Positions 40,197 through 64,000 of a DNA stretch of 64,000 nucleotides are shown one piece after another. A program made the position numbers and the translations under genes. The stretch spans positions 1-64,000 of the forward strand of contig SVNO01000003.1 in the NCBI GenBank assembly GCA_015066845.1, given 5' to 3'. Origin of the DNA: Ruminococcus sp. (lineage in GTDB: Bacteria > Bacillota > Clostridia > Oscillospirales > Ruminococcaceae). The notes beneath the pieces were generated by a model. It made no database searches and had not been told where the DNA came from. It saw nothing but the letters and a program-made list of their open reading frames with translations. Within the stretch, counting starts at the first letter, position 1. Each line of letters opens with the position of its first letter.

Positions 40197-40201
40197 AGCA
40201 G

Positions 40202-40230
40202 TTTCCCCTCCCGCTGGGAGGGGATTTTTG
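40202..40230 (+). terminator. Rho-independent terminator
   Basis: CCCCTCCCGCTGGGAGGGGATTTTT. Confidence 0.8.
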
Positions 40231-40233
40231 CAG

Positions 40234-40297
40234 TTCACGACAGAAATCATACAATTTACGACAGATTTGTGCAGACAGGAAAAATTTGTGGTATGAT
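40234..40297 (+). promoter_or_regulatory. Phased direct repeat plus -10 box upstream of CPBP protease gene
   Basis: TTCACGACAG (40234-40243) and TTTACGACAG (40255-40264), 21 bp apart; TATGAT at 40292-40297; no good -35. Confidence 0.65.
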
Positions 40298-40349
40298 AGA
40301 CACATCAAGAGAACGCAAAGCGTTCCAAATTACAATGGAGGTCATACTT

Positions 40350-44502: not shown

Positions 44503-44560
44503 AGAATTCCTCCTGAGGAATGCAAAGCGGAGGCACTTCATAGTCCGCTATCATCCCGAA

Positions 44561-44587
44561 AAGCCCCTCCCCCAACGGGGAGGGGCA
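44561..44587. repeat. CCCCTCCCCCAACGGGGAGGGG hairpin (fragment of multi-hairpin element)
   Basis: Matches the core hairpin of the 41400-41562 element. Confidence 0.45.
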
Positions 44588-44621
44588 GGATGGACGGACT
44601 GTGCAGAGTCACAGCTCCACT

Positions 44622-45413
44622 TTACAGATTATAATTGTAGCTGATGCAGACAACCTTGTCACCGGAAATGGTGAAGCGCAGGTTGGAATTGCCGCTGGTG
44701 TAGACATAATCAGGGCCTTCCACCGTGTACCCTGTGCCATAGGCATTTTCCACATCTGCAAGGCTCGCGCCAATGCCGATGCCCTTGGAGGTGGTCAGGC
44801 TGCCGCCGGTAATGTCAATGCCGTAGGTCAGCTGTGTGCCGTTGCTGTCCCAGATGTACAGGGTGTAGTCGGTGTAATAATAGTTCACATCGTTGCCGTT
44901 CCCGTAACAGCTCGGCGCGGATTCCACGCTGTCCGCCGGAACTGCCGCAACAAATCCGGCAGCGTCCTGTCCGACAGTCAGGGAGCTGCCGCCTGCCGTG
45001 AACACAAGGTCAGCCTCAGTAAAGCTTGCTGGCGGCTGTGTCGGTTCTGTTGTTGGCGGTTCGGTCGGCTGTGCATCTTCAGACGGCTCTGTCGGAGCTT
45101 CCGTGGCTTCTTCCGTTGTCGGAGCTTCCGTTTCCGTGGCTGCGGACGATTCTGTAGTATCGGTCGTTTCCGTCGTTTCCGTTGTTTCTGTTGTTTCCGT
45201 TTCTTCTGTGGCAGCCGTCACCTGTGTGGTAGCTGCCGCCTTGGTGGTTGCTTTTTCCGTGGTGGTTGTGGATTCCGTTTCCGTTGCAGGTGCAGTGGTC
45301 GTGGTCTGCTCCGGTGTGGAAGTCACTTCTTCGGTCTGACTGCCGCAGCCAGCAAGGGCAGCGGACATGGCAAGTGTGCACAAAAGGCACAGAAATACGT
45401 TCTTTTTCATCAT
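44622..45413 (-). CDS. Lipoprotein with Thr/Glu-rich linker
   Basis: Lipobox MSAALAGCGS, ~100 aa T/E/P-rich stretch, C-terminal globular domain (GIGIGASLADVENAYGTGYTVEGPDYVYTSGNSNLRFTISGDKVVCISYNYNL). Confidence 0.8.
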   Translation of the reverse strand: MMKKNVFLCLLCTLAMSAALAGCGSQTEEVTSTPEQTTTTAPATETESTTTTEKATTKAAATTQVTAATEETETTETTETTETTDTTESSAATETEAPTTEEATEAPTEPSEDAQPTEPPTTEPTQPPASFTEADLVFTAGGSSLTVGQDAAGFVAAVPADSVESAPSCYGNGNDVNYYYTDYTLYIWDSNGTQLTYGIDITGGSLTTSKGIGIGASLADVENAYGTGYTVEGPDYVYTSGNSNLRFTISGDKVVCISYNYNL

Positions 45414-45424
45414 AATACACATCC

Positions 45425-47290: not shown

Positions 47291-47453
47291 TGATAGCACC
47301 CTCTTTTCTGAAAATTCCGGCAGCTGCAAAAGGTCTGCATCCTGCCGCGCGTCCATACATGGAGAGTAGGGAAGTGCTGTTTCAGAAACAGCGATTTTTG
47401 CGAAAATGCGCAAAATTCTGCCCATTTTGCATGATGAACACGGTGATACTATC

Positions 47454-47482
47454 ATTATACACTATTTGACAGCAAAAGTCAA
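47454..47482 (-). promoter_or_regulatory. Sigma-A-like promoter
   Basis: TTGACT, 17 bp spacer, TATAAT on the minus strand. Confidence 0.65.
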
Positions 47483-47598
47483 TATTTCTTTTTTTTGAGG
47501 AAACAATTCCCTCCTCTGAAAGTGATTTCTTTCTCTCCGTCCGATGCTCCTCATCAATCCTTTGTTTCCAATCTGCGCAAAGCTTTCCAAATAAGAAA

Positions 47599-47632
47599 CA
47601 CCCCCGAAACGCTTTGTGCATTTCGGGGGTGA
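47599..47632 (-). terminator. Terminator of paralog 1
   Basis: CACCCCCGAAATGCACAAAGCGTTTCGGGGGTG followed by TTTCTTATTT (minus strand). Confidence 0.75.
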
Positions 47633-47661
47633 GTTTTGGTTTTGTAGGCTATGAAAGGTGA

Positions 47662-50600
47662 TTATTTTTTGAGAATCATCTTCATGAGAACAGCCAGGTC
47701 GAATGCGTCAATTCTGCCGTCGATACAGAAGTCAGCATTCTTGGGTGCTTCTGTTGCAGTAGTGGACTTGAGATACTTCTGCAGTGCAATGACATCAAGA
47801 ACAGTCAGTTCATTGTCGCCATTGAGGTCACCGTATGTTTCCTCATCCACAGAACCATTCACTGTCGGTGCAAAGCAGCCGGGTGTTTTCAGGTTCGGAG
47901 TGTTGGGGAGAATCGGAGCTGCGAGATTCTCGCACTTATCAAATACATTGTCGCCAGCAGTGGTCAGGCTGCAGCTGCCATCCTTGCCTGCGATGCGGAA
48001 TACCTTGAGACTTGTGCAACCGGAGAATGCATAGTTTTCAATGGTTTCTACAGAGGAAGGAAGTGTGATAGCTACAAGCTTATCACATCCAGCGAATGCA
48101 CTGTTTTTAATCGTCTTAAGCTGGGAATTCGGTGCAAAGGTGATGGAAGTCAGGTTGCAGCCAGAACCAAATGCATAGCCTTCGATGGATGTAACAGTTG
48201 CCGGAATGACAACGGACTTCATCATGCCATACATGTTTTTGCGTGCACCTTTGCATTCTGTGTTCATCTGTACAACCGTGTAAACTGTGCCATCCTCTGC
48301 CTTTACAGTTTCCGGAATGACATAGCTTGTAACATTCTTGTCAAATACACCTGTGAATGCAACGGTCTTATCCTCCTTGCTCAGGATGGTGTACATGCCA
48401 TTGTCTACGATAAAGTCATTGCTGCCAACATTGCTCTTGTACTGATACTCGATGGTAACATTTTTGTTCAGGATATGGCCATCAGTTGTGGTACAATTCA
48501 TGAATTCTACCAGTGCAGCTTCATCTCTTTCATCCAGTACACGGTCGCCGTTGATATCGAATTCCTTGTCGCTGTAATTTGCAGGTATTGTACCGTTTAC
48601 GAGGAACGTGCTCTTGAAGAAGTCGTAATCATCGCTGTCGATTCTGCCGTCCAGGTCAAAGTCACCCTGCAGTACAGGACGCTCAACAAAGACTGCATTT
48701 TCTCTCAGGAAGTCAGCCGTTACCTTTACGTCACCGTCAGTTGTTACGGAGTTGTCAGCCAGTACCTTGTACTTGTAAACGGTATCTGTCCAACGAATCT
48801 GGCAGCTGTTCATATCGCCGTTGCACTCTGCAACTGTAATATCGTCACCATTGATGGATGCAATGAACAGGCTGTGACCTGCTGTCGGAGCATTCGGGTC
48901 GGATTCCAGCTCAGAACCATCGGAATACAGACGAATCTGGTCGCCAACCTGCGGTACATATTCCTCAGGCTTGGAATCAGCGGTACGGGTAATCATACCA
49001 TCTTCAATGTAGTAGCGTACAAAGGACTCTGTGCCCCAGATGTCCTCTGCAACCTTTCTTGCAAAACCGCAGCACTGCGGCAGGGACTTGATGGTGCAGT
49101 TGAAATCACCCTTCTTGTCAACGCTGTGTGAGCAGTCATAGTAGCTGTGCCATTTTCTTCCTTCATCAATGGATGCGCTTGTCATAGACAGCTTATGGTC
49201 AAGAGAGAGGCAGTATTCCTTCTTGTTCTTGGAGTGGTCGCAGGGAACAGAAGTTGTGCTGTCCTCAGAACCGTTTGCTTCCATTGCATTCCAGTATTCG
49301 CCATCGGGGAACTTGCTCATTTCAGCAGCAATGCGGTCTTCCCATTCAGAAAGAACAGTGGTGTACTTCACAGCTCTACGCTCATCGCTTACATACTGCA
49401 TTGCCAGTTCCTGCAGATAGGTCGGTGTCTTTGTACCAATAACGAATTCATTGTACAGTGCGGTGTCTGTGCTGTTGAATACGCCATCAAAGTTCATATC
49501 ATTTTCAACAGTGTACATGTACTTGGAGGTATCATTACCGAGGAACTGTACATACTGGGGCTGTTTATCAATACGCTGTACCTTGATACGATCCGTCCAG
49601 CCCTTGATGGTCTGGCTTGTGGAAAGACCTTCACCAGCCAGTACTCTCTGTGTGGGTGTCAGGAACTCGCCATCTCTGAAATAACCGCCCAGCAGTTTTC
49701 TGTCCTCAATACCGAGTACGCCATCCATATTGAGGTCACCGAGATAATAGGACGGGCTGCCACTCATCAGGTTGTAGACATCCTTATCCACTGTGTCACA
49801 CCAACCAATGGTGTAAGCAGTCAGATCACTGATATCCGTACCACCGCCTATCATCAGCTCGGTAGTATCCTCATAGTATGCATTGCAGTACATTTTGAAG
49901 GTGTGGGAATTGCTGTAAATTTCAGTTTCTTTACCGGATTCATTCAGACCATCGTCGTAGTAATCCTTTGCACCATACAGATGTGCGATCTCATGCATGA
50001 GTGTATTGGATCTGTTGTTGTAAACAATTGTATACTCATTTGCATTATTATGGAATTCTGTTTCAGGATTGGATACGATAGCATAGCTTCTGCCGACAGG
50101 AGCATTGAGGTGGAACAGAACCATAACGCCATCTGCATCATACTGTTCCATCAGCTTCTCTGCATAGGGAGACATTTCTGCATCAGCTGCCTTCATCAAG
50201 TCAATTTCGCCATTGGATGCGTTCTTGATCTGCTCCATTACATTGGCAGCGTTACTGCCGGTTCCATCAGGAGATGCGCCCTGATTGTCATCAGCAGTGG
50301 GCATGATGGATATTCTCTTGCCGTTAATGAGGTTCTTATAAGGTTCAACACCCTGGAACAGGATTTCATGCACATCGTCATTCCATGCATTGTATGTGAA
50401 ATAAATGTTCAGGGAGGGATCCGTTACAAATTCCAGATCTGTCACATTGTACTTCTCAGCATTTTCTTCAAAGTTTTTGAGGGACTTTTGGATGCTGCTC
50501 AGACGCTGTGCCATCATATCGGAATAAACGTACTTGCCATGGAAGTCTCCGGTTGTCGGAATAACGTTTGTTTCACCGTTTTTCTTGAAATAGTTGATAT

Positions 50601-51393
50601 AGTCTACATTGTCAAAGGAAACAGCGGTTGCATTGGATGCATCTACTTCCTTGAAGCCCTGCTCCCATGTGGAGTTGAAGGTAACGTCAAGTTCTGTCTT
50701 CGGAATGGAATAAACCTTTGTATAGAAGAAATCGTAATAATTATTCTCCAGGTCATAACTGTCGAAGTCCTTCTTCTCCTCATCACTAAGCTTTGTCCAC
50801 TGGTCAACCTCTGTTTCCAGATCCGGAAGGGATGCGCTTACTTCGTTGAGGAAGATGTTCACAACCACCTGCTTACCGCGCATTTCGCCGGCAGAACCAT
50901 AATGCATGTAGGGGAGAGTTTCATCTGTGAGATAGGTTTCTTCATATTTGGTATCTCTGAAAGCACTATCACGGATTACTCTGGTCGTGGGAGTCATAAA
51001 AACATTTTCCAGATTTGTACAGCCGCCAAAAGCACCATCCTTGATGATTTCTACAGAATCCGGAATTGTTACTGTTGTGAGGTTGGGCAAATTGGAAAAC
51101 GCATTACAGCTGATGTTGGTAACGCCATCCAAGATAGTTACTTTTTTTACAGCTCTTTCAAAAGTGTATGTGTATTTCCAAGGTGCTTTGTGCTGTGCAA
51201 AGTTGTCCATAACGCCGCTTCCGTAAATGGTCAGCTCACCATTGGGATTGAATGCCCAGTAAATGTCTTCACCGCATGAACCGGACTGCGCTGCAGCAGA
51301 TGCAGTCAGCATATTCACCGGCAGTGCGCTGCTGATCGCCATGAGAGAAGCCAGAGAAACAGTCAGTGCTCTCTTGATCATGTTTTTCTTCAT
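47662..51393 (-). CDS. Paralog 1: secreted LRR_5 / HExxH metalloprotease-like / papain-like Cys domain / dockerin protein (1243 aa)
   Basis: Signal peptide. LRR_5 at both ends (AFSNLPNLTTVTIPDSVEIIKDGAFGGCTNL). LMHEIAHLYGAKDYYDDG (codons 49981-49995). QCCGFARKVAEDIWG...GHSLFIASINGDDITVAEC. C-terminal dockerin GDLNGDNELTVLDVIALQKYL...ADFCIDGRIDAFDLAVLMKMIL. Confidence 0.85.
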   Translation of the reverse strand: MKKNMIKRALTVSLASLMAISSALPVNMLTASAAAQSGSCGEDIYWAFNPNGELTIYGSGVMDNFAQHKAPWKYTYTFERAVKKVTILDGVTNISCNAFSNLPNLTTVTIPDSVEIIKDGAFGGCTNLENVFMTPTTRVIRDSAFRDTKYEETYLTDETLPYMHYGSAGEMRGKQVVVNIFLNEVSASLPDLETEVDQWTKLSDEEKKDFDSYDLENNYYDFFYTKVYSIPKTELDVTFNSTWEQGFKEVDASNATAVSFDNVDYINYFKKNGETNVIPTTGDFHGKYVYSDMMAQRLSSIQKSLKNFEENAEKYNVTDLEFVTDPSLNIYFTYNAWNDDVHEILFQGVEPYKNLINGKRISIMPTADDNQGASPDGTGSNAANVMEQIKNASNGEIDLMKAADAEMSPYAEKLMEQYDADGVMVLFHLNAPVGRSYAIVSNPETEFHNNANEYTIVYNNRSNTLMHEIAHLYGAKDYYDDGLNESGKETEIYSNSHTFKMYCNAYYEDTTELMIGGGTDISDLTAYTIGWCDTVDKDVYNLMSGSPSYYLGDLNMDGVLGIEDRKLLGGYFRDGEFLTPTQRVLAGEGLSTSQTIKGWTDRIKVQRIDKQPQYVQFLGNDTSKYMYTVENDMNFDGVFNSTDTALYNEFVIGTKTPTYLQELAMQYVSDERRAVKYTTVLSEWEDRIAAEMSKFPDGEYWNAMEANGSEDSTTSVPCDHSKNKKEYCLSLDHKLSMTSASIDEGRKWHSYYDCSHSVDKKGDFNCTIKSLPQCCGFARKVAEDIWGTESFVRYYIEDGMITRTADSKPEEYVPQVGDQIRLYSDGSELESDPNAPTAGHSLFIASINGDDITVAECNGDMNSCQIRWTDTVYKYKVLADNSVTTDGDVKVTADFLRENAVFVERPVLQGDFDLDGRIDSDDYDFFKSTFLVNGTIPANYSDKEFDINGDRVLDERDEAALVEFMNCTTTDGHILNKNVTIEYQYKSNVGSNDFIVDNGMYTILSKEDKTVAFTGVFDKNVTSYVIPETVKAEDGTVYTVVQMNTECKGARKNMYGMMKSVVIPATVTSIEGYAFGSGCNLTSITFAPNSQLKTIKNSAFAGCDKLVAITLPSSVETIENYAFSGCTSLKVFRIAGKDGSCSLTTAGDNVFDKCENLAAPILPNTPNLKTPGCFAPTVNGSVDEETYGDLNGDNELTVLDVIALQKYLKSTTATEAPKNADFCIDGRIDAFDLAVLMKMILKK

Positions 51394-51685
51394 AATTCTA
51401 CTCCTTTTTTTCTTTTTGACATTTACAATTCAGTTTGCGTGTTTTCAAAGCTTTCTGTGTACCAGTGTGCTGTACATCGGTGCTTAGCGTTCCGGTTCTG
51501 CATGATATCCTGCTGCTGTTCAGCAAAGAAACCCTCCTTCCCCCCTCATGCAGCTGGTTGTATACCGGATTTGTGTTATCATTCTTTCTTGGTAAACTTG
51601 AAACCACGATGTGAGTACGTTTCATTTTTGATTTGTTCAAGAAAAATTCACGGGATTGTTCCTAAAATGTAAATGCCTATTATCA

Positions 51686-51714
51686 ATTTTATCACATTTA
51701 GTTCAAAATGTCAA
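51686..51714 (-). promoter_or_regulatory. Promoter of paralog 1
   Basis: Minus-strand TTGACA, 17 bp spacer, TAAAAT. Confidence 0.7.
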
Positions 51715-52044
51715 TAGATTTTAATCAATTTACATATAGTAAATAAACGAAAAGTGCAAAATTCCATTTTTCTCTCTTTGCAACTGGAAAATATTGCGTT
51801 AACTCTGTTCCGATAATTATCAGGATTTCTCCCTGTGGTAAAAACATGTCGAAGAATTCGGAACACATTATTTTCCCTGAATTGCACATATAATAGAGCT
51901 TTCACCATTGCGCAGCCATCCCTGAATGATGACAAAATGAAAAAATATTGCTATTTTTAAGCATAAAATTGACTGCCACAGTTGATGGAAATCAAGTCTA
52001 AAAAGTGCTATCGGCACATTTTTTTGAACGCTTTTCAAGAATGT

Positions 52045-52117
52045 GTCTAAATTGTTAAAAATATTACGAAATGTAGAAAAATGTTCAGAATGATTATTTT
52101 TTCAAATTCTGCTGACA
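52045..52117 (+). promoter_or_regulatory. Truncated plus-strand promoter-like region lacking a -10 and a downstream gene
   Basis: GTCTAAATTGTTAAAAATATTAC, then 45 bp later TTCAAATTCTGCTGACAAATG, matching upstream regions of the 56854 and 60408 genes; homology stops after the -35. Confidence 0.6.
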
Positions 52118-52163
52118 AATGCAGATCTCCCGATTTGAACGCAAAGCCTTCCAAATAAGAACC

Positions 52164-52200
52164 CCCCGAAACACTATGTGCATTTCGGGGGGTGATTTTT
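52164..52200 (-). terminator. Terminator of paralog 2
   Basis: CCCCCCGAAACACTATGTGCATTTCGGGGGG hairpin; homologue of 47599-47632. Confidence 0.7.
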
Positions 52201-52223
52201 GGTTTGTAGGCTATGAAAGGTGA

Positions 52224-55200
52224 TTATCTTTTGAGAATCATCTTCATGAGAACAGCCAGGTCGAACGCGTCAATTCTGCCATCGATACAGAAGTCAGCAT
52301 TCTTGGGTGCTGCTGTTGCAGTAGTGGATTTGAGATACTTTTGCAGTGCAATGACATCAAGAACAGTCAGTTCTTTGTCGTCATTGAGGTCGCCGTATAC
52401 TTCCTCATCCTTGGAACCATTCACTGTCGGTGCAAAGCAGCCAGGTGTTTTCAGGTTCGGAGTTTTGGGGAGAATCGGAGTTGAGAGATTCTCGCACTTA
52501 TCAAATACATTGTCGCCAGCTGTGGTCAGGTTGCAGCTGCCGTCCTTGCCTTCAATGCGGAAAATCTTGAGGCTTGTGCAGCCGGAGAACGCATAGTTTT
52601 CGATAGTTTCTACGGTATGCGGGAGAGAGATGCTTACCAGCTTATCGCATCCAGAGAATGCACCGTTTTTAATTGTCTTAAGCCGGGAATTCGGTGCAAA
52701 GGTGATGGAAGTCAGGTTGCAGCCGGAACCGAATGCATAGCCTTCGATGGATGTAACAGTTGCCGGAATGACAACGGACTTCATCTTGCCATACATGCTA
52801 TTGCGCGCGCCTCTGCATTCTGTGTTCATCTGTACAACCGTGTAAACTTTGCCATCCTCTGCCTTTACAGCTTCCGGAATGACATAGCTTGTAACATTCT
52901 TGTCAAATACACCTGTGAATGCAACGGTCTTATCCTCCTTGCTCAGGATGGTGTACATGCCATTGTCTACGATAAAGTCATTGCCGCCCACAAGGCTTCT
53001 GTACTGGTACTTGATGGTGACATTTTTGTTCAGAATATAGCCATCAGCTGTGGATTGCTTCATAAATGCCTGCAGTGCAGCTTCATCCTTCTCATCCAGT
53101 ACGAAGTCGCCGTTGACATCGAATTCCTTGTCGCTGTAATTTGCAGGTGTTGTACCGTTTACGAGGAACGAGCTCTTGAAGAAGTCGTAATCATCGCTGT
53201 CGATCTTGCCGTCCAGGTCAAAGTCACCCTGCAGTACAGGACGCTCAACAAAGACTGCATTTTCTCTCAGGAAGTCAGCTGTTACCTTTACTTCACCGTC
53301 AGTTGTTACGGAGTTGTCAGCCAGTACCTTGTACTTGTAAACGGTATCTGTCCAACGAATCTGGCAGGTGTTCATATCGCCATTGCACTCTGCAACTGTA
53401 ATATCGTCACCATTGATGGATGCAATGAACAGGCTGTGACCTGCTGCCGGAGCATTCGGGTCGGATTCCAGCTCAGAACCATCGGAGTACAGACGAATCT
53501 GGTCACCAACCTGCGGTACATATTCCTCAGGCTTGGAATCAGCGGTAGGGGTAATCATACCATCTTCAATGTAGTAGCGTACAAAGGACTCTGTACCCCA
53601 GATATCCTCTGCAACCTTTCTTGCAAAACCGCAGCACTGCGGATACTTGCCAATTGTGCAGTTGAAATTACCCTTCGGGTCAATGCTGTGAGAGCAGTCA
53701 TAGCGGCTGTGCCATACTCTGCTTTCATTGATGGATGCGCTTGTCATGGACAGCTTATGGTCAAGGGACAGGCAGTATTCTTTCTTGTTCTTGGAGTGGT
53801 CGCAGGGAACAGAAGTTGTGCCGTCCTCAGAACCGTTTTCTTCCATTGCATTCCAGTATTCGCCATCGGGGAACTTTCTCATTTCAGCAGCAATGCGGTC
53901 TTCCCATTCAGAAAGAACAGTGCTGTACTTCACAGCTCTATGCTCATCACTTACATACTGCATTGCCAGTTCCTGCAGGTAGCTCGGAGTCTGTGTGCCT
54001 GTCACGAAAGCGTCATACAGTGCAGTGTCCTTGGAATTGAAAACGCCGTCAAAGTTCATGTCGTTCTCAATGGTGTACATGTACTTGGAAGTATCATCAC
54101 CTTGGAACTGTACATACTGGGGCTGATTTTCAATACGCTTTGCGGAGATGTGGTTTGTCCATGCCTTGATAGTCTGGCTTGTGGAAAGACCTTCACCAGC
54201 CAGTACTCTCTGCATAGGTGTCAGGAATGCATCGCCATTGTAGTAAGCACCAAGCAGCTTTCTGTCAGGAATACCAACTGTACCGTCCATGTCGATGTCA
54301 CCGAGGTAATAAGGTGTTGCGCCGTTCATCTGATCGAAAACATCCTTCTCTACTGAATCGATCCAGCCGAGTGTATAAGCGGTCAGAGCATTGAACTTAT
54401 TTGTGTTGTCCGTCATCATATCCGGGCAATTTCTGAAATAAGTGTCGCAGTACATCTTAAAGGTGGGAGAACCGGAAGTGATTTTTCCGTTGACATTGGA
54501 GTTCTTCAGACCATCGTCATAATAGTCCTTCGCACCGTATACATGGCAGATTTCGTGCATGATGGTGTCGATAGAATTGTTATACAGCATAACGAATTCT
54601 TCGCCGTTGCTCTGTTTCTCCTTCATTGTCTGAATTGCATAGGATCTGCCCCAGTAGCATTCATCCAGATGGACAAGCACAATTACGCCATCTGCATTGT
54701 ACATGTCCTTCACCTTCTGTGCATAAGGAGACATTTCAGCATCATCTGCTTTCAGCAGGTCGATTTCGCCGTTGGTTGCATTATAAATCTGCTCAAAAAC
54801 ATTACGAGTACCGCTTCCTTTTCCAGAGAGGGGAGAAGACTTATCACTGGAGGAAGGCATGAGTGCATTATCCTGTGTGGGAATAATGGAAGGATGGGTG
54901 TCATTTAGGCGATGCTGATAGGTTACACCATCTCTGCCGATGGCTTCGCGTGTGCCATCATCCCACGTATTGTATGTGAAATGGAAGTTGAGAGAAGGTT
55001 CTGTAATGAAGTCCAGATCATTGATACCGTAGGATCTTGCGGATTCTTCCAGCTTTGTCAGTGCGGTGTTCAATCTGATGGAGTGTTCCTCCATTTTGTC
55101 GGAGCGAACGTAAGTGCCATAGAAGCCCTCATTCTGAGGAAGAACGGAGGTGTCGGACTTTACATAGGCAGGATAGTTTGTCGGATTGAGGGAAACAGCC

Positions 55201-55967
55201 ATTGCTGTTTCGTCATTGACAGCTTTGTAACCCTGCTGCCATGCAGAAGTATAATTCTGGAAAGCAAGCTTATTCTTTTCAATGCGGTAAGTTTCAGTAG
55301 CGTCATGATAAGAATCATAATAATACTTATCCAGGTCGTAGCTGTCAAAATCCAGTTCCTCATCGCCCGTGATCTTGGTCCATTCAGCACGTCCGTCAGC
55401 TGAGTCCAGACTCGGCAGACCAATGGAAAGCTCATCAAGGAAGATATTCACAACCACCTGCTTACCGCGCATTTCGCGGGCAGAACCGTAGTTCATATAC
55501 GACAGTTCTTCTGTTGTGAGATAGGTTTCTGCATACTTTGTACCAGCAAAAGCACCATCAATAATGACTCTGTCCGTGGGTGTCATGTAGACGTACTCCA
55601 GATTTGTGGAATCTCTAAATGCATTAAGACCGATCATTTCTACAGAATCCGGAATTGTTACTGTGGTAAGAGCTGTGAAATCGTAGAATGCAACTGCACT
55701 GATGTTAGTAACACCATCAGCAATCGTGATTTTGGTTACAGCATTACTGAGCTTTTGCCATGGTCTCATATGATGCAGATAGTTGTCCATAACACCATTA
55801 CCAGCAATTGTCAGCTCACCGCTTGGATCATACGACCAGTACACACCATCACCGCATGAACCACCCTGAGCCGCAGAAGCAGTCAGCAAATTGAACGGCA
55901 GTGCGCTGGCAGCTACGAGAGAAGCGAGAGAAACAGTCAGTGTTCTCTTTATCATGTTTTTCTTCAT
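52224..55967 (-). CDS. Paralog 2: same architecture as paralog 1
   Basis: MKKNMIKRTLTVSLASLVAASALPFNLLTASA signal. IMHEICHVYGAKDYYDDG (54543-54557). QCCGFARKV...GHSLFIASINGDDITVAEC. C-terminal dockerin. Start 55967 after AAAAAGGAGTAG. Confidence 0.85.
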   Translation of the reverse strand: MKKNMIKRTLTVSLASLVAASALPFNLLTASAAQGGSCGDGVYWSYDPSGELTIAGNGVMDNYLHHMRPWQKLSNAVTKITIADGVTNISAVAFYDFTALTTVTIPDSVEMIGLNAFRDSTNLEYVYMTPTDRVIIDGAFAGTKYAETYLTTEELSYMNYGSAREMRGKQVVVNIFLDELSIGLPSLDSADGRAEWTKITGDEELDFDSYDLDKYYYDSYHDATETYRIEKNKLAFQNYTSAWQQGYKAVNDETAMAVSLNPTNYPAYVKSDTSVLPQNEGFYGTYVRSDKMEEHSIRLNTALTKLEESARSYGINDLDFITEPSLNFHFTYNTWDDGTREAIGRDGVTYQHRLNDTHPSIIPTQDNALMPSSSDKSSPLSGKGSGTRNVFEQIYNATNGEIDLLKADDAEMSPYAQKVKDMYNADGVIVLVHLDECYWGRSYAIQTMKEKQSNGEEFVMLYNNSIDTIMHEICHVYGAKDYYDDGLKNSNVNGKITSGSPTFKMYCDTYFRNCPDMMTDNTNKFNALTAYTLGWIDSVEKDVFDQMNGATPYYLGDIDMDGTVGIPDRKLLGAYYNGDAFLTPMQRVLAGEGLSTSQTIKAWTNHISAKRIENQPQYVQFQGDDTSKYMYTIENDMNFDGVFNSKDTALYDAFVTGTQTPSYLQELAMQYVSDEHRAVKYSTVLSEWEDRIAAEMRKFPDGEYWNAMEENGSEDGTTSVPCDHSKNKKEYCLSLDHKLSMTSASINESRVWHSRYDCSHSIDPKGNFNCTIGKYPQCCGFARKVAEDIWGTESFVRYYIEDGMITPTADSKPEEYVPQVGDQIRLYSDGSELESDPNAPAAGHSLFIASINGDDITVAECNGDMNTCQIRWTDTVYKYKVLADNSVTTDGEVKVTADFLRENAVFVERPVLQGDFDLDGKIDSDDYDFFKSSFLVNGTTPANYSDKEFDVNGDFVLDEKDEAALQAFMKQSTADGYILNKNVTIKYQYRSLVGGNDFIVDNGMYTILSKEDKTVAFTGVFDKNVTSYVIPEAVKAEDGKVYTVVQMNTECRGARNSMYGKMKSVVIPATVTSIEGYAFGSGCNLTSITFAPNSRLKTIKNGAFSGCDKLVSISLPHTVETIENYAFSGCTSLKIFRIEGKDGSCNLTTAGDNVFDKCENLSTPILPKTPNLKTPGCFAPTVNGSKDEEVYGDLNDDKELTVLDVIALQKYLKSTTATAAPKNADFCIDGRIDAFDLAVLMKMILKR

Positions 55968-56263
55968 AATTCTACTCCTTTTTTCTTTTTGACATTTACG
56001 ATTCAGTTTGCGTGTTTTCAAAGCTTGCTGTGTACCATTGCCATTGCTGCAGGTCATCGGTGTTCAGTGTTTCGGTTCTGCATGACATCCTGCTGCTGTT
56101 CAGCAAAGAAACCCTCCTTCCCCCCTCATGCAGTTGGTTGTATACCGTATTTGCGTCCTCATTTTCTCTTATACCTCTGAACCTCCGATGTGAGTGCATT
56201 TCATCTTTGATTTGTTCAAGAAAGAATATGGAATCACTTCTGAAATGTAAATGCTTATCACCA

Positions 56264-56292
56264 ATTGTACCACATTTTGCCTAAAATGTCAA
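56264..56292 (-). promoter_or_regulatory. Promoter of paralog 2
   Basis: Minus-strand TTGACA, 17 bp spacer, TACAAT. Confidence 0.7.
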
Positions 56293-56690
56293 TAGGTTTT
56301 AATCGATTTACATATAGTAAATGGAAAGCAAGCGAAACTGCCCCATTATTTCCTGATCTTCTGGAAAATATTGCGTTTATTGTATTGGAGCAATTTCCGA
56401 CCATTCCTGCGGACACATCAATATGCTGAAAAAAACAGGAAAGCTGTGTGATTCGGAAATTGCGTGAATAATTCAGTTTTTGATTTTGATTATCCATCTC
56501 TGAAGTCCTGTCGGAATATCAATATCTTGCTGGTTTCCGCACAAAATTGACTTAAAAAGCATACAAAATCCAGTCTAAATAGTGCTAACGAAGAATGGCT
56601 TGACTGTAATTTCTAAATTTTGTCTGAAATATTAAGAATATTACAGTCAGTAAAGAGAAAAGCTCTAATTTATGATTCGTTCAAATTCTA

Positions 56691-56719
56691 TTGACAAATG
56701 AAGAAAAAAATGCTATGCT
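56691..56719 (+). promoter_or_regulatory. Promoter of paralog 3
   Basis: TTGACA, 17 bp spacer, TATGCT; GTCTGAAATATTAAGAATATTAC element at 56622-56644. Confidence 0.6.
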
Positions 56720-56720
56720 T

Positions 56721-56760
56721 AAGGCAATACTGCACAGAGGACAGTGCATCAGCGATGTAT
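56721..56760 (+). repeat. AAGGCAATACTGCAC-family short repeat inside the paralog 3 leader
   Basis: Similar to 20155 and 22099. Confidence 0.4.
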
Positions 56761-56853
56761 CCGCGACTGCCAGCACTCGCTGGGCATCTGCTTCATATTT
56801 GCTGTGGATTGTAAGTTCAGTATAAAAATACAATTATAACAAGGAGTAGTACA

Positions 56854-59800
56854 ATGAAAAGAAATACAATGAAACAGACAATTGCCGTCTTTCTCGCTTC
56901 GCTCATGGCGGTTCAGGCTGGCGGCAGTTATCGGTTTCCATTGAGCGCGTTCGCAGAGGAAGTGCCGTATACAGGCACATGCGGCGAGTCACTTGAATGG
57001 CTCGTCTTGGGTAACGGGGTACTGAAAATCACGGGAAAGGGCAATATGCCGGACTATACGCAGCAGGATGCGCCGTGGGAAATGCACAGGGAAACAATCC
57101 GTGAGGTGCATCTCGGTGACGGCGTGGCATCCATCGGCGCGGATGCCTTTTCGCAGTGCACAGCTCTTGAGCGTGTGCAGATTCCCGATTCTACGCAAAA
57201 AATCGGTGCAAATGCATTCAAGGACTGCCAGTCCCTGCGATATGTGCTGATGAACCAGACAAGCAGGGTGATTGTGGAAAATGCATTCGAGGGCACGCCG
57301 TTTTTACAGTACTACACCACCGAGCAACTGAAAGGCATGGACAAGGGCGCGGCTGGTCTGATGCGCGGAAAACAGCTTGTTGTCAACATTTTTGTGGATG
57401 AAGTAACGAAAACTGAGGATGATTCCTTAGTGATTGCAGATTCATGGCAGCCCGAACCGGATGCCGGCAATGAACATGCTCCCGTACTGCTCGACTGTGA
57501 TAATTTCTATGCCTATCTCCGCACAGATGATACGGACAAAACCGTTTTGCCGCAGGATTCCACGGATGCTGCAGGACAGCCCGTGTCCTCCGAAGCCATT
57601 GCCGGACGGCTTGCGGCGTTGGAGCATGTACTGACAGAATTTGAAACGCAGTCAGAGGAATTCCGGACGGATCCCGATACAAAGCTGCTGGAATTTGTCG
57701 AAGGTCCGAACTATTTTTTCACCTATCAGGCAACGGACGGCGCGGTGAGTATTGCCGGCGATTCACTCATGATCGGCGGAACATACAGCAATGGTGCGGA
57801 ACTGATGCGGCAGCTCACAGAGGTGTCCGGTCAGCAGGTCGATCTGCGTACACGAACGGACAGTGAGATGAATTACAGGGAAATGCTCATGGAGGAGTAC
57901 GATGCCGATGGTGTACTGTTTCTGTTCCATCATAACGCACCAACTGGTAAAACCATAGTGTTCCCAGAAGATTCCTACGAAGAATGTGCCATGCTCTGCA
58001 CGGACGAGGAAGCAGTGCTTGCGGAACAAATTCTGACGATGTACAGCGCGAACGAAACGGAATACGGCATTCCGGCAATTGCCGCACCAATCGAAAATGG
58101 CGAAAAACCGTATACATTGATGCTCTGCAACGGTTCACTTCTCAATTCTGATGTACCGGATGGGCAAGTCAGTCCGCTGTCTGCCTATGTCCGCGGCTGG
58201 AATCGCACGATTGAATCGTCCGTGTATTTCATGCTTGGCAGCGGAAAGAACTATCCACTCTTTGATGTGAATCTGGACAGTACGTACAATGAGGATGATG
58301 CTGAACTGATTTCCGGCTATTTCAAGGGAGAATATCATTATGAACCTGCCGACATCTACGGTACGGAGAACAGCTGTTATCTGCCCCCGTTGAAGCGTAT
58401 GTTTGCAGGTTACGGCATTTCGGGTGTCTATACCGGCATTGAGGGTTGGACGAATGATGTGAATATTGAAAGCTATGGGGATGCTGGATTATTGAAAATT
58501 TCCAATGCCAAACACCCCGGCAGCATCCTGCGCCCCTGCAACGATGTGAATTTTGACGGACTGGTCACAACGGGTGATAAGGACTTACATGATTCCTATC
58601 CGTTCCATGACGGCTGGGCAGATGTCAACTATCTGCAAGCTGTAATGATTCTCAAATCGAAGTCAAGCAAATTCCCGCAGCCCTTTACCATTGGCAGGGA
58701 TACATGGTATTTTGCTAATGATAAGAGCTTTTTCGGCGAAACGTACTCCATGAAGAAGGGACATAAGAAGCTTCTGGAATCGATTTCTTCAGAAATTGGA
58801 CAATGGAACAGCAACCGCTTTTTGCATGAAGACCAATTCGCTGGCTCGTGCTACGGCATGTGTGCAACGACATTGCTGACATATTACGGACTGGTTCTGC
58901 CGCAGCAGCTCGATGAGGACGCAAAAACGCTCCATGATGTGGGTACGGGAAAGAACAGCGAGGCAGAATCCATTGAATCCTATATCAATTATTACCATGT
59001 TTCCCAGCGTTTCAAAACACAGCGCAGCAATCTGTTTGCCTATCCGGATTTGCCCCCGATTGCATCCATTCTTGCCTGTCTGGACGATGGCTCTCCCACC
59101 ATTGTTTCCTACAAATACGCAAAGGGTGAACATGCGGTTATTGCGTATGGTGTCACTTACGGCAGATACATGGTCAACAATCTCACCTATGACGGGAAAA
59201 TCCAGATTTATGACCCCGACCATCCGGACGGTGACGATACATGGTGCATTTATTTCAAAAGCTTTGCACCATCGGAATACTGCATCCCTGGTCGAAACGC
59301 ATTTTCTCAGGACGAAACCCTGACCATTCTCGGCGCGCAGGACAAGCTCTCCGTTATTAATGACGAGGTACTCGTTGAGGGAAAAGTTTCCCTGCACCCC
59401 GAAAAACGCTTCAATGCATCCGTGAGAGCTGCGGATATGATCACGGACTATGCGTTCGGAAAGGGGACTACCCTCCCTGACGTAGTAAAGAACACTGAAA
59501 TCGGCAGTGATATCATTGTCCCTGCGCAGATTGCAGGTATGGGCGAGTCCGTGTATTTCATGATGGACGCAAAATCGCCCTATTTCCTGAAGCTGGAAAC
59601 CCCTAATGAGTTTGACGTACAATTGAATTATCCCGACTGCAAACTCCATGCCTACAGCATAAACAGCACGTCCGTTATCTTCTATCACAAAGGGAAAATC
59701 GAAATGCAGGCAAGGGGAACAAGCTACGAATTCTGCATGGAGGAGGAAACCAGTGTCACCGATTGGGAAAGCATCACTGTCAAGGATGAGAAAACCGGCG

Positions 59801-60204
59801 ACGCGGCATTGGAACGTGCGGAGGATGGCTACCTGCTGACTTCCTCGGACATGGCAGATGTCAACGTGATTTGCACAGCACCGGGTATCTGTGCGGAGGT
59901 CACCTTTACAACGGACTACGAGAAAGTATTCCTCTATGAAATTGACAAGTACACCATCGGTGTTGCTGTGGATGCGGACGGTGACGGCACATTTGAAACT
60001 CCCATCGCCCAGAGTGACGAGGGAACAGCAGGCGACCTGAACAACGACAAGGCTTTTACTGTGCTCGATTTAGTTGCAATGAAACGTTGGCTGCTTTCCG
60101 GCAATGTAAAGCTTATCAACAGCAGAAATGCCGATTTTACGAAGGATGACGTTCTGGATGGATTCGATTTTGCCATTATGAAGCGCAAGCTTCTGGAAAG
60201 CTGA
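56854..60204 (+). CDS. Paralog 3: secreted LRR_5 / degenerate protease-like / C39-like Cys domain / dockerin protein (1116 aa)
   Basis: Signal peptide. LRR_5 (AFSQCTALERVQIPDSTQKIGANAFKDCQSL). GSCYGMCATTLLTYYGL...GEHAVIAYGVTYG. Dockerin GDLNNDKAFTVLDLVAMKRWL...ADFTKDDVLDGFDFAIMKRKLL. Confidence 0.85.
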   Translation: MKRNTMKQTIAVFLASLMAVQAGGSYRFPLSAFAEEVPYTGTCGESLEWLVLGNGVLKITGKGNMPDYTQQDAPWEMHRETIREVHLGDGVASIGADAFSQCTALERVQIPDSTQKIGANAFKDCQSLRYVLMNQTSRVIVENAFEGTPFLQYYTTEQLKGMDKGAAGLMRGKQLVVNIFVDEVTKTEDDSLVIADSWQPEPDAGNEHAPVLLDCDNFYAYLRTDDTDKTVLPQDSTDAAGQPVSSEAIAGRLAALEHVLTEFETQSEEFRTDPDTKLLEFVEGPNYFFTYQATDGAVSIAGDSLMIGGTYSNGAELMRQLTEVSGQQVDLRTRTDSEMNYREMLMEEYDADGVLFLFHHNAPTGKTIVFPEDSYEECAMLCTDEEAVLAEQILTMYSANETEYGIPAIAAPIENGEKPYTLMLCNGSLLNSDVPDGQVSPLSAYVRGWNRTIESSVYFMLGSGKNYPLFDVNLDSTYNEDDAELISGYFKGEYHYEPADIYGTENSCYLPPLKRMFAGYGISGVYTGIEGWTNDVNIESYGDAGLLKISNAKHPGSILRPCNDVNFDGLVTTGDKDLHDSYPFHDGWADVNYLQAVMILKSKSSKFPQPFTIGRDTWYFANDKSFFGETYSMKKGHKKLLESISSEIGQWNSNRFLHEDQFAGSCYGMCATTLLTYYGLVLPQQLDEDAKTLHDVGTGKNSEAESIESYINYYHVSQRFKTQRSNLFAYPDLPPIASILACLDDGSPTIVSYKYAKGEHAVIAYGVTYGRYMVNNLTYDGKIQIYDPDHPDGDDTWCIYFKSFAPSEYCIPGRNAFSQDETLTILGAQDKLSVINDEVLVEGKVSLHPEKRFNASVRAADMITDYAFGKGTTLPDVVKNTEIGSDIIVPAQIAGMGESVYFMMDAKSPYFLKLETPNEFDVQLNYPDCKLHAYSINSTSVIFYHKGKIEMQARGTSYEFCMEEETSVTDWESITVKDEKTGDAALERAEDGYLLTSSDMADVNVICTAPGICAEVTFTTDYEKVFLYEIDKYTIGVAVDADGDGTFETPIAQSDEGTAGDLNNDKAFTVLDLVAMKRWLLSGNVKLINSRNADFTKDDVLDGFDFAIMKRKLLES

Positions 60205-60316
60205 GTACACTCGACTGCTCTGCAATTTTCAGTCTGTAATTTTTGTGTGTCTGAACTGTTAATAATATTACAAACGGTAAAATCAACGATTTAATTTATT
60301 TTTTGTTCAAAATCTC

Positions 60317-60345
60317 TTGACAAATCAGAAATAAGATGCTATGAT
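60317..60345 (+). promoter_or_regulatory. Promoter of paralog 4
   Basis: TTGACA, 17 bp spacer, TATGAT; upstream element GTCTGAACTGTTAATAATATTAC at 60249-60271. Confidence 0.7.
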
Positions 60346-60407
60346 AGTAATAGGCATTTACTTTTTTTGGGAAACTTGCCTGAAAAATATGCAAAAGGAG
60401 TAGTATT

Positions 60408-63400
60408 ATGAAAAAAAGACCAATGCGAAAGACAATCATTGCCTGCCTTGCTGCGCTTTTGGCTGTCAATGCTGCATTGCCTGCGCAATATATTGACTTG
60501 CGCGCAAATGCAGAAATGTCAAGCTTTGAGAGCGAGGTGCTGGATAAGGGTTCTACCGGTGAATCCGTCATCTGGACCCTTGACGAGAATGGTGTCATGG
60601 AGATCAGCGGTAATGGCGATATGGGTAATTACAACCCCGATGGTATTCCGTGGCTGCTGTACAGAGAAATGATCAAGGAAGTTGTGATCCGTGAAGGCGT
60701 AACAGGCGTAGGTGATAATACCTTTGCTGAGTGTGAAGCACTTGAACGTGTGTATATTGCTGATTCTGTAAAAAGAATCGGTCAGAGTGCGTTTGCAGGC
60801 TGTACAAATCTGACGGAAGTGACTATGAACCCGACCGACAGAATCATTATCGAAAATGCGTTTGAGGGTACGGAGTTCTACAAGGATTATTACACAACTG
60901 CGACTCTTCCGGGAATGAATAAGGGCGCAGCCGGTACGATGCGCGGAAAGCAGCTGGTTATCAACGTATTCGTTGACGAGGTTGTCGGAGAAAACGGCGG
61001 CGAGTTTACCATCAGCAATTCCTGGCAGCCCGACACAGCCGGTGCATCCAAGAATAATCCTGTACTGCTCGACCGTAACAACGTTTACAAGTACCTTACC
61101 GCAAGCACTACGGACAAGACCTATCTGCCGCAGAATCCTGACGATTCCGTCACAGATAAGCCCGTCACCTCCATTGCAATCGAGCAGCGTCTGACTGCAC
61201 TGAACAATGTGTTCGCAAAGCTGGAAAAAGAAGCAGACGCTTTCAAAACGGATGATGAAACAACAATGCTCGAATTTGTCAATGGCCCGAGCTATTTCTT
61301 CACCTATCAGGCAGTAAATGGTGCGGCAAGTCTTATGGATGAAAATGGTGCGGAAACAGTTATTTCCCCCAGCCAGACTGGCGCATCTTTCATGGATCAG
61401 CTCCTGCAGCTGTCCTCTGGTCAAACATTCAACCTGAAAATTGACCAGAACACCAAGAAGTCCCAGCTTATGGATAAACTTCTGAAAGAGCATGAGTGCG
61501 ACGGCGTACTGTTTCTGTTCCATCATAACGCACCGGATGGTACATCCACGGTATTTGCAGAGGAAACATACGAGGAAGTTTCCGTGCTCTACAGCAGCGA
61601 TGAAGCGGACATTGAAAAGCAGATTCTGGGCGCATATGGTGCAGCTGAGGATGAAAGCGGTATTCCGACCGCTGTACCGGACGGCGACCACAATGCATTG
61701 AAAATGTACAATGGTGCTTTGAGAAACCCTTCCGGTCCGAAGGACCATGTCAGACCGTTGACAGCCTTTGTTCGTGGTTGGAACACCCAGATTGAAAAGG
61801 ATGTTTTCAATCTGATGAAGTCCGGTACGAATGTTTCGCTTCTGGATATGAATATGGATGGTACTCTCAGCACGGAGGACGAAAAGATTATTACCGCATA
61901 TATCAAGCGGGAAGAAGGTGCAAAGGATTCAATTACTTACTTCACTCCTTTCAAAAGAATGCTGTTTGGCAGCGGGCTTACTGTATTGGATTCTGATATT
62001 CAAGGCTGGACAGACCAGATTTCCGTTGAAAGATGGATGTATGATCCGGCTGATGATTATCATGAGGATGGGGTGAAACGGTCCTATCTTGTAGATAATC
62101 GTAAGGATGATTTCAACTGCGTTAAATTTATCAATAAGGCAGATGGCAGCTGCATCATGCGTCCCTGCAACGATTTGAATTTTGACGGATTAGTTACCAC
62201 TGGTGACCAGGAGATTTATGGCAGTTTTTCATCTGTTGACGGTAATAACTTTGTGCAGTGCATGATGTTTTATCATTATAATCCCAGAGAAGACAAAGCT
62301 CCGAGACCGTACAAAATTGGTGTGGATACATGGCGTTTTGAGAATGATGATTATTCTTTTGGCAGTACCTACACAATGACTGACGAGCATGCAGCTGCCG
62401 CAAAGGAATTATACAGAGGCGATGCCGATTACCGTGAAGTTTATACTGGGAATGGGCCTTTTGGCGGTTCCTGTTATGGAATGTGTGTTACCTCCATTCT
62501 GAGTTATTATGGGATTATCAGTCCTTCCATTCTCGATTCGAGTGCTGTTACTGCATATCAAGTGAACCAAAACAATGGCCTCGCTTTGCCTAAAGACCTT
62601 GAATCTTTCATCAATTATTATCAAACGTCGCAATACTTCTATGTACAGCTTGAAAACAGACACACTTATTCTGGAATAAAAGATGATGAAAGTGTTCGCG
62701 GAATCCTTGAATGTCTTGAGGATGGTTCACCCACAGTTGTTGGAACTATACATTATACTTACTATACAGATCGTAAAAAGGACTATTATCCGGGCCATGC
62801 AGTTGTTGCGTACGACGTTGAATACGGTATTGAATACAAGGAGCCCAAAAGGCCAGATGTAGTATTCGATGCAAGAATTCTGGTTTACGACCCGAAATAC
62901 AGGTACTTCAAGGATGAATGCTGTATTTATTTCTGCAGCGATGATCCGACAAAATTCTGCATTCCGGCTCAAGAAATCTATTATGATACAAATCCCGATG
63001 ATATATACGATGTCATTAAGTTTACAGAAATAATGGATGATCTGTCTGTATTGAACAGCAATGGTCTTGTGGACGGCACAATGGGCTTCCGTTATAAAGC
63101 ACCGAAAGCCTCTATCGAATCCATGAGCATGTCGTCTGACTATTTAATCGGCAAGGGGACAAACATCACCTCTGATAACACCATCAACCCCGACAACATC
63201 ACAACCGATGACAGCTCCATTTACTACATGGAGGACGGTGACGCATCCTACTACCTTCAGAATGCAACTCCCAACCCCTTTAACGTACAGATGAACTACG
63301 AGAACTGCACACTCAAGGCAAATGCAAGCAATGGCTCATCCGTTGTATTCTCTCCCAAGGGTAAAATCGAGCTTTCCGGTAAGAACACTGACTTTGAGCT

Positions 63401-63878
63401 GGAAATGGACCTGAATCCGGAGACAAAGGTAACCGACTGGAACACCATGACCATCAAGGGCAAGAAGTCAGGTGGTGCAGTATTTGAAAAGGTTGACGGC
63501 GGTTATCTGCTGACATGTTCGAATCTCTCCGACATTGAAGTTATCTGCACCAGCCTTGGCATCAGCGCAGATGTAAACTTTACAACGGATTACGACAAGG
63601 TATTCCTCCACGAAATCGACAAGTACACCATTGGTGTATCCGTGGATAAGGATGGCGACGGTGAATTTGAAACCCTCATCGCCAAGAGTGCCGAGGGCGT
63701 AACAGGCGACCTGAACAACGACAAGGAATTCACTGTACTCGACTTGGTTGCAATGAATCAGTGGCTGCTTTCCGGTGATGGAATGCTCATCAACAGCGAA
63801 TATGGTGACATTACAAAGGACGGCGTACTGGACGGTTTCGACCTTGCGGCTATGAAGCGCATGATTCTGACAAAGTAA
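60408..63878 (+). CDS. Paralog 4: same architecture as paralog 3 (1156 aa)
   Basis: LRR_5 (TFAECEALERVYIADSVKRIGQSAFAGCTNL). GGSCYGMCVTSILSYYGI...GHAVVAYDVEYG. Dockerin GDLNNDKEFTVLDLVAMNQWL...GDITKDGVLDGFDLAAMKRMIL. Confidence 0.85.
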   Translation: MKKRPMRKTIIACLAALLAVNAALPAQYIDLRANAEMSSFESEVLDKGSTGESVIWTLDENGVMEISGNGDMGNYNPDGIPWLLYREMIKEVVIREGVTGVGDNTFAECEALERVYIADSVKRIGQSAFAGCTNLTEVTMNPTDRIIIENAFEGTEFYKDYYTTATLPGMNKGAAGTMRGKQLVINVFVDEVVGENGGEFTISNSWQPDTAGASKNNPVLLDRNNVYKYLTASTTDKTYLPQNPDDSVTDKPVTSIAIEQRLTALNNVFAKLEKEADAFKTDDETTMLEFVNGPSYFFTYQAVNGAASLMDENGAETVISPSQTGASFMDQLLQLSSGQTFNLKIDQNTKKSQLMDKLLKEHECDGVLFLFHHNAPDGTSTVFAEETYEEVSVLYSSDEADIEKQILGAYGAAEDESGIPTAVPDGDHNALKMYNGALRNPSGPKDHVRPLTAFVRGWNTQIEKDVFNLMKSGTNVSLLDMNMDGTLSTEDEKIITAYIKREEGAKDSITYFTPFKRMLFGSGLTVLDSDIQGWTDQISVERWMYDPADDYHEDGVKRSYLVDNRKDDFNCVKFINKADGSCIMRPCNDLNFDGLVTTGDQEIYGSFSSVDGNNFVQCMMFYHYNPREDKAPRPYKIGVDTWRFENDDYSFGSTYTMTDEHAAAAKELYRGDADYREVYTGNGPFGGSCYGMCVTSILSYYGIISPSILDSSAVTAYQVNQNNGLALPKDLESFINYYQTSQYFYVQLENRHTYSGIKDDESVRGILECLEDGSPTVVGTIHYTYYTDRKKDYYPGHAVVAYDVEYGIEYKEPKRPDVVFDARILVYDPKYRYFKDECCIYFCSDDPTKFCIPAQEIYYDTNPDDIYDVIKFTEIMDDLSVLNSNGLVDGTMGFRYKAPKASIESMSMSSDYLIGKGTNITSDNTINPDNITTDDSSIYYMEDGDASYYLQNATPNPFNVQMNYENCTLKANASNGSSVVFSPKGKIELSGKNTDFELEMDLNPETKVTDWNTMTIKGKKSGGAVFEKVDGGYLLTCSNLSDIEVICTSLGISADVNFTTDYDKVFLHEIDKYTIGVSVDKDGDGEFETLIAKSAEGVTGDLNNDKEFTVLDLVAMNQWLLSGDGMLINSEYGDITKDGVLDGFDLAAMKRMILTK

Positions 63879-63887
63879 TTCCTTTCA

Positions 63888-63924
63888 CCCCAAAACACCC
63901 CGATTTTTCAAGTAAATCGGGGTG
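63888..63924 (+). terminator. Terminator-like hairpin after paralog 4
   Basis: ACACCCCGATTTTTCAAGTAAATCGGGGTGT. Confidence 0.7.
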
Positions 63925-64000
63925 TCAGTCTGTCAAAAAACCTTATAAGGTTCAAAGGAAGGAGTCCTTTGGCGGGTTAGAGTGTACGCAGTACCCTCGC
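63925..64000 (+). repeat. Start of another AGTCTGTCAAAAAACC-bounded element, truncated by window end
   Basis: CAGTCTGTCAAAAAACC matches the boundary at 41400; interior differs (CCTTATAAGG, AAAGGAAGGAGTCCTTT). Confidence 0.5.

Follow-up and report, generated by a model that had tools for sequence, protein, structure and literature searches.

Loss of the zinc motif in one pair of a four-gene metzincin-type cluster from a Ruminococcus, and recurrent loss among its relatives

We analysed a stretch of 64,000 nucleotides (hereafter the window; positions 1 to 64,000, forward strand, of contig SVNO01000003.1, assembly GCA_015066845.1) from a gut-type Ruminococcus sp. (Ruminococcaceae), in which positions 47662-63878 are occupied by four large secreted proteins of ~1,100-1,250 aa, P1 and P2 on the minus strand and P3 and P4 on the plus strand. 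The four copies lie side by side within one 16 kb cluster and carry homologous metzincin-type domains; P1 and P2 have the zinc motif, and P3 and P4 have lost all four of its canonical positions. The motif is also absent from several more distant relatives, and in one such lineage the altered domain is under purifying selection. We consider it likely that an ancestral gene was duplicated and that on the P3/P4 branch the metzincin scaffold was turned into a binding module. An earlier note had read the four as one pair that looks like active metalloproteases and, next to it, one pair of pseudoproteases, a distinction that our analysis bears out; its motif positions were exact for P1 and P2 and only a few bases off for P3 and P4, where it had placed the segments at ~58015-58060 and ~61608-61650 (actual positions in Table 1).

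P1-P4 share, in one continuous alignment, a signal peptide (recognized by inspection in all four), a BspA-type leucine-rich repeat (LRR) region, the metzincin-type domain and a split EF-hand pair. The LRR match (PF13306) exceeds its cut-off of 27.7 bits in every case, at 127.7, 121.8, 50.4 and 46.7 bits for P1-P4, as does the type I dockerin (PF00404) at each C-terminus, with 48.6, 45.8, 41.5 and 38.8 bits against a cut-off of 22.9. BLASTP aligns P1 with P3 (E 6e-70) and with P4 (E 7e-65) uninterrupted from the signal peptide or LRR to ~aa 650 of P1, beyond which nothing substantial aligns except the final dockerin. The motif is flanked in all four proteins by common landmarks, MRGKQ..N.F..E upstream and A[YF]..GW downstream, and because the segments lie inside one unbroken alignment with landmarks on both sides, they are homologous rather than alike by chance. 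At the position of HExxHxxGxxH/D, P1 reads HEIAHxxGAKD and P2 HEICHxxGAKD, whereas P3 reads EQILTxxSANE and P4 KQILGxxGAAE. Both zinc histidines, the catalytic Glu (to Gln) and the third ligand Asp (to Glu) are thus replaced in P3 and P4, and on these four key positions (E-Q-T-E and K-Q-G-E) we file them as pseudo-metzincins rather than metzincin peptidases. P3 and P4 combine homology to an active family, by BLASTP and by profile, with the disappearance of its catalytic and metal-binding residues. Their domains are very probably not zinc peptidases, and those of P1 and P2 are apparently active ones, as judged from the same residues.

We looked for a zinc site displaced from its usual place, assessing it by residue conservation rather than by model geometry. 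Relocation of the lost motif was ruled out, as there is no HExxH anywhere in the P3 or P4 sequence. P3 and P4 have no substitute zinc motif in common; the His and Cys positions on which their domains agree amount to one HH dyad, the first His of which is already present in P1 and P2. With the motif replaced and just this dyad in common, there is neither a canonical zinc site nor an obvious displaced one. Of the two outcomes that the earlier note named as refuting it, segments without homology and a displaced zinc site in paralogs 3 and 4, neither was observed. The dyad, together with several acidic residues common to P3 and P4 and the Glu that both have at the third-ligand position, could suggest catalysis by another mechanism or at a displaced metal site, but with both zinc histidines and the Glu base gone, no HExxH and no further common His or Cys, we regard this as highly improbable. 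In the Met-turn region, after the zinc helix, ELM of P1 and DMM of P2 align with the [ED][IL]M of the relatives, and the P3/P4 alignment is ambiguous. That the plus pair only looks dead through a sequencing, assembly or frame artefact is hardly worth entertaining: the assembly is a draft of 106 contigs, but P3 and P4 are full-length open frames that differ at ~54% of residues and yet agree on the loss, and the same kind of loss occurs in other genomes.

The domain belongs to a family without a name in Pfam, which yields only sub-threshold Reprolysin_5 matches for the relatives; against the same entry (PF13688, cut-off 27 bits) P1 scores 23.1 bits and P2 14.6, and P3 and P4 give no match. None of the other 37 genomes in the genus carries the domain, and a first contig scan with the four window domains returned zero relatives. 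A profile of P1-P4 reached faint relatives in the family, and once six of these were added, clear homologs turned up in 19 of 396 genomes at family level and 28 of 295 at order level, both counts including the window's own genome. The relatives are proteins of 250-500 aa, secreted or lipoprotein-like, with the signature YAHE[IML]LHxFGAxDLY..[ED]IM..SPLTAYxxGW, and the hosts of intact motifs bear such names as Gemmiger, Subdoligranulum, Butyrivibrio, Pseudobutyrivibrio and relatives of these. Searched against solved chains, the four-sequence alignment returned nothing above noise (FACT Pob3, E 0.1), and a 34-row profile fared no better.

HExxH is missing from 7 of the 45 relatives surveyed in the order. 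These dead members, as we call them, comprise four of genus g191 (L097, L099, L110 and L111, with YVYMLLQLCGAEKLYG and variants), two of genus g196 (L103 with LTKNILSLFGAQ, L112 with LARNILSVFGAQ) and L101 of f21 (VVLTTLCLYGAESL). Searches within the two genera found the dead form in 5/5 g191 genomes and 3/3 g196 genomes; each genome has one profile match, the dead copy, and no active copy was found there. When the motif columns are left out of the maximum-likelihood tree, P1-P4 form one clade (100/99) within which P3+P4 (100/99) and P1+P2 (98/92) pair off. The tree needs four changes of state, three of them forced by starred branches, and in the window cluster a single loss before the P3/P4 split would most simply explain the pattern. 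Approximately unbiased (AU) tests rejected a single clade of all dead members including P3 and P4 (p 1e-5) and one of the dead members minus P3/P4 (p 5e-52); the unions of P3/P4 with g196 and of g191 with g196 lay outside these tests. Reconstructed in this way, loss of the motif is recurrent, having taken place at least three to four times and become fixed across genera. The losses are, if anything, undercounted, since the survey profile was built mostly from motif-bearing members.

Selection on a dead domain can be read clearly in genus g191. Its ratio of nonsynonymous to synonymous divergence (dN/dS) is 0.09-0.13, the rest of the same protein has 0.16-0.29 and active relatives 0.12-0.27; the g191 dead domain is clearly maintained by purifying selection. 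These lineages bear on a further possibility, that P3 and P4 regulate, cap or act as decoys for P1 and P2; they might, for instance, pair with them via the LRR-metzincin half that all four have, or sequester an inhibitor. The earlier note had suggested a regulator or decoy role for one of the pairs. The arrangement invites such a reading, with two active and two dead copies in one cluster and a common N-terminal half, and pseudopeptidases that regulate active cousins are known, according to a review (PMC11266112). However, g191 and g196 keep the dead domain with no active relative found, in g191 demonstrably by selection, so retention does not depend on an active sibling, and regulating or decoying one does not explain dead copies in general. 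The promoter types of the two pairs also differ, and joint expression of P1/P2 and P3/P4 is therefore not evident. We consider a regulator or decoy role rather unlikely; of the three roles that the note had offered, this part is weakened, and that of a substrate or partner binder fares best, as the more plausible reading of the dead domain.

P1 and P2 have a common promoter and leader type, the leader being ~270 bases long and highly alike near the gene. Rfam has zero matches in 44000-64000, and the conserved leader is accordingly not a known RNA family. P3 and P4 have a different promoter type, in which a block AATATTAC-N-TTCAAA precedes a TTGACA-like hexamer. A third AATATTAC-N-TTCAAA block stands on the plus strand at 52060-52106, in the gap between P1 and P2, with no clear -10 hexamer or gene after it; it may be what is left of the promoter of a lost member, or else serve as an antisense start that reads into P2. 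The AATATTAC..TTCAAA pattern occurs three times in the window and elsewhere in the genome once, on another contig and with a very different spacer. The C-terminal halves of P1 and P2 are almost identical, with synonymous divergence (dS) of ~0.05-0.2 over most of aa 670-1243, and dS is saturated across much of the metzincin half, a pattern that points to gene conversion sparing the protease domain.

The C-terminal modules set the two pairs further apart. The earlier note had the Cys-protease-like module remaining in the dead pair, which is wrong in detail, as the modules of P1/P2 and P3/P4 are unalignable and of different kinds. That of P1/P2, QCCGFA...GHSLFI...AECN, is NlpC/P60- or CHAP-like by its Cys..His..polar order only; Pfam yields no hit for it up to an E-value of 10, NlpC/P60 and CHAP included, and in P1 it has no sequence match to any solved chain. 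Its profile-level relatives are mainly ~nine loci in a single other genome (G328); there the module is found without a metalloprotease as well (L052). In that genome, of another genus, it sits in two loci (L059 and L062) behind a thermolysin-like HEFTH/HELTH domain on a dockerin-like tail, a second pairing of a metalloprotease with a papain-like module. The P3/P4 module, GSCYGMC...GHAV.AY...YDP, has intact Cys, His and Asp motifs; because it misses the Pfam cut-off all the same (Peptidase_C39_2, PF13529, 24 bits; P4 15.4, P3 no match), we call it C39-like at most. Such modules with a dockerin are common in the family without a metzincin-type domain, behind varied N-termini (LRR, cohesin-like, Thr-rich). 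The papain-like modules of all four proteins are putatively active. An NCBIfam scan returned only LRR and dockerin carry-over.

Two dockerin-like EF-hand repeats stand ~60 residues apart in P1 (aa 551-568 and 630-648, ~49690-49743 and ~49450-49506), and likewise in P2-P4, as if a dockerin had been interrupted by an insert. The window's own genome (G000; draft, 93% complete) has 118 dockerin matches and one partial cohesin match, of 27.7 bits; the scaffoldins of this organism may use cohesin types missed by Pfam.

AlphaFold2 models of the P1 and P4 domains, computed from the 34-row alignment, are consistent with a metzincin fold in both. The P1 model (predicted local distance difference test, pLDDT, 76.6; predicted template-modelling score, pTM, 0.79) has ADAM17, OgpA, adamalysins and fragilysin as its best VIA-align matches (top row Z 9.8, 168 residues, 3.5 A). 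The P4 model repeats the succession of strands and helices seen in P1, the former zinc helix among them (P4 domain residues 233-243), and its best matches are TACE, ADAM22 and OgpA (top row Z 7.4, 169 residues, 4.2 A).

We envision an ancestral secreted gene with a signal peptide, a BspA-type LRR, a zinc-active metzincin, a split EF-hand pair and a terminal dockerin, which would have been duplicated. One branch, P1/P2, would have retained the zinc site and carried the NlpC/P60- or CHAP-like module, placing a zinc endopeptidase and a papain-like enzyme on a single dockerin-bearing chain. The other, P3/P4, would have lost both zinc histidines together with the catalytic Glu and the third ligand, in the simplest case once before the split, and carried the C39-like module. 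Its dead domain would retain the metzincin scaffold, most likely as a binding module acting with the LRR, the old substrate cleft or surface loops holding a protein or glycoprotein target; any chemistry would fall to the C39-like candidate peptidase. The dockerins would attach all four proteins, by cohesin docking, to the cell's dockerin-based surface complexes.

A domain that is a mere spacer or folding aid between the LRR and the C39-like module, a remnant with no partner of its own, is the remaining contender. P3 and P4 are ~46% identical in the domain, a moderate value no higher than in neighbouring modules, as a spacer might show. However, the core landmarks of the active family (GxA, [MRGKQ]..N.F, A[YF]..GW) are retained in both, the g191 dead domain is more conserved than the remainder of its protein, and C39-like modules in the family occur without a metzincin-type domain; we judge the spacer unlikely. 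Several points nonetheless weigh against the binding-module account. A binding role is what one would guess by default for any pseudoenzyme. Both module labels, C39-like and NlpC-like, lie under Pfam cut-offs. Between P3 and P4, dN is ~0.2-0.8 and dS mostly 1.5-3.5, which is saturated, and selection on these two proteins is for that reason visible crudely at most, although it is suggestive of domains kept by selection and not decaying. Confidence in the P4 model is middling (pLDDT 67.9, pTM 0.74), unrelated folds can reach a Z of 7.4, and Foldseek gives E 0.25-0.26 for the P1 and P4 models, which is not significant, so that the fold of P4 rests mainly on sequence homology.

Table 1. Positions of the cluster features in the window.
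Feature	Positions	Strand	Basis or remark
P1, secreted LRR + metzincin + papain-like + LRR + dockerin, 1243 aa	47662..51393	-	
P2, paralog of P1	52224..55967	-	start re-set to ATG at 55967
P3, secreted LRR + pseudo-metzincin + C39-like + dockerin, 1116 aa	56854..60204	+	
P4, paralog of P3, 1156 aa	60408..63878	+	
P1 metzincin-type domain	49759..50916	-	alignment; Reprolysin_5 23.1 bits (below cut-off 27); AlphaFold2, VIA-align
P2 metzincin-type domain	54321..55505	-	alignment; Reprolysin_5 below cut-off
P3 pseudo-metzincin domain	57331..58251	+	alignment, BLASTP, tree
P4 pseudo-metzincin domain	60906..61841	+	alignment, BLASTP, tree, AlphaFold2 model
P1 zinc motif HEIAH (HEIAHLYGAKD)	49981..49995	-	inside 18-mer LMHEIAHLYGAKDYYDDG, 49948-50001
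P2 zinc motif HEICH (HEICHVYGAKD)	54543..54557	-	inside 18-mer 54510-54563
P3 degenerate motif LAEQILTMYSANETEYG	58018..58068	+	E, Q, T, E in place of His, Glu, His, Asp
P4 degenerate motif IEKQILGAYGAAEDESG	61611..61661	+	K, Q, G, E in place of His, Glu, His, Asp
P1 papain-like (NlpC/P60- or CHAP-like) module, QCCGFA / GHSLFI / AECN	48679..49296	-	no Pfam match
P2 papain-like (NlpC/P60- or CHAP-like) module	53238..53855	-	
P3 C39-like module, GSCYGMC / GEHAVIAY / YDP	58621..59343	+	
P4 C39-like module	62235..62987	+	Peptidase_C39_2 15.4 bits, below cut-off 24
P1 internal dockerin	48508..48666	-	PF00404
P1 C-terminal dockerin	47671..47835	-	PF00404
P2 internal dockerin	53070..53228	-	PF00404
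P2 C-terminal dockerin	52233..52397	-	PF00404
P3 C-terminal dockerin	60028..60195	+	PF00404
P4 C-terminal dockerin	63705..63869	+	PF00404
P1 promoter + leader, nearly same as P2's	51394..51760	-	
P2 promoter + leader	55968..56330	-	
P3 upstream block AATATTAC..TTCAAA, then TTGACA / TATGCT	56637..56685	+	
P4 upstream block AATATTAC..TTCAAA, then TTGACA / TATGAT	60264..60311	+	

The start of P2 is likely the ATG at 55967 rather than 56057, from the ribosome-binding site and homology to P1. The gene adjoining the cluster, at 45425-47332, encodes a secreted protein that combines choline-binding repeats with a transglutaminase-like core and has a weak dockerin. Nearby, at 38161-41369, lie a LytTR response regulator, a GHKL-type (AgrC-like) sensor kinase and a CPBP-type membrane protease, recognized by sequence, which together make up a quorum-sensing-like unit.

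To our knowledge, metzincin-type pseudopeptidases have been described mainly in animals, as ADAMs. Pseudopeptidases, including these metzincin ones, are already known, and their catalytic Glu is replaced, as in QSLAHNIGIISD of ADAM22 (PMC11266112). Like P3 and P4, the ADAM pseudopeptidases (ADAM11, ADAM22, ADAM23 and others of family M12) keep the metzincin scaffold and have lost the zinc motif, and ADAM22, which the same review describes as assembling complexes through surface loops (PMC11266112), is among the top matches of the P4 model. They differ in being animal and transmembrane, with no LRR_5, papain-like module or dockerin, and no sequence relation between them and P1-P4 was found. The true homologs (profile E down to 1e-90) are the standalone Ruminococcaceae/Lachnospiraceae metzincins of Gemmiger, Subdoligranulum and Butyrivibrio (YAHExLHxFGAxDLY), but these are ~250-500 aa long with the motif mostly intact, and those inspected have no LRR, dockerin or papain-like module. 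OgpA of Akkermansia and fragilysin of Bacteroides fragilis, both metzincins of gut bacteria, rank with the solved folds that come nearest to the P1 model, although no sequence relation to the P1-P4 domain was detected; as their Z is tied with that of animal ADAMs, the match is silent on the substrate of P1. RflaF_05439 of Ruminococcus flavefaciens, a dockerin-borne NlpC/P60 protein with a solved structure, likewise places papain-like peptidase modules on a dockerin in a cellulosome-forming Ruminococcus, but consists of tandem NlpC/P60 and X-dockerin only, with no metzincin or LRR (PMC3573020).

In a literature search that covered few subscription papers, no bacterial family of metzincin pseudopeptidases came up in which loss was repeated and maintained by selection. 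We lean towards the view that a metzincin family of gut Clostridia has repeatedly given rise to conserved pseudopeptidases, in some genera with no active copy in the same genome, and that in the window's organism these are joined to LRR, C39-like and dockerin modules. With this cluster, proteases and pseudoproteases join the non-carbohydrate cargo of dockerin systems, P1 and P2 serving as built-in controls for P3 and P4. With recurrent loss, and strong constraint in one genus, the fate of a protease fold that no longer cuts becomes testable in small secreted bacterial proteins. If the family does repeatedly yield conserved pseudopeptidases, the binding function of the scaffold would be primary and separable from cleavage.

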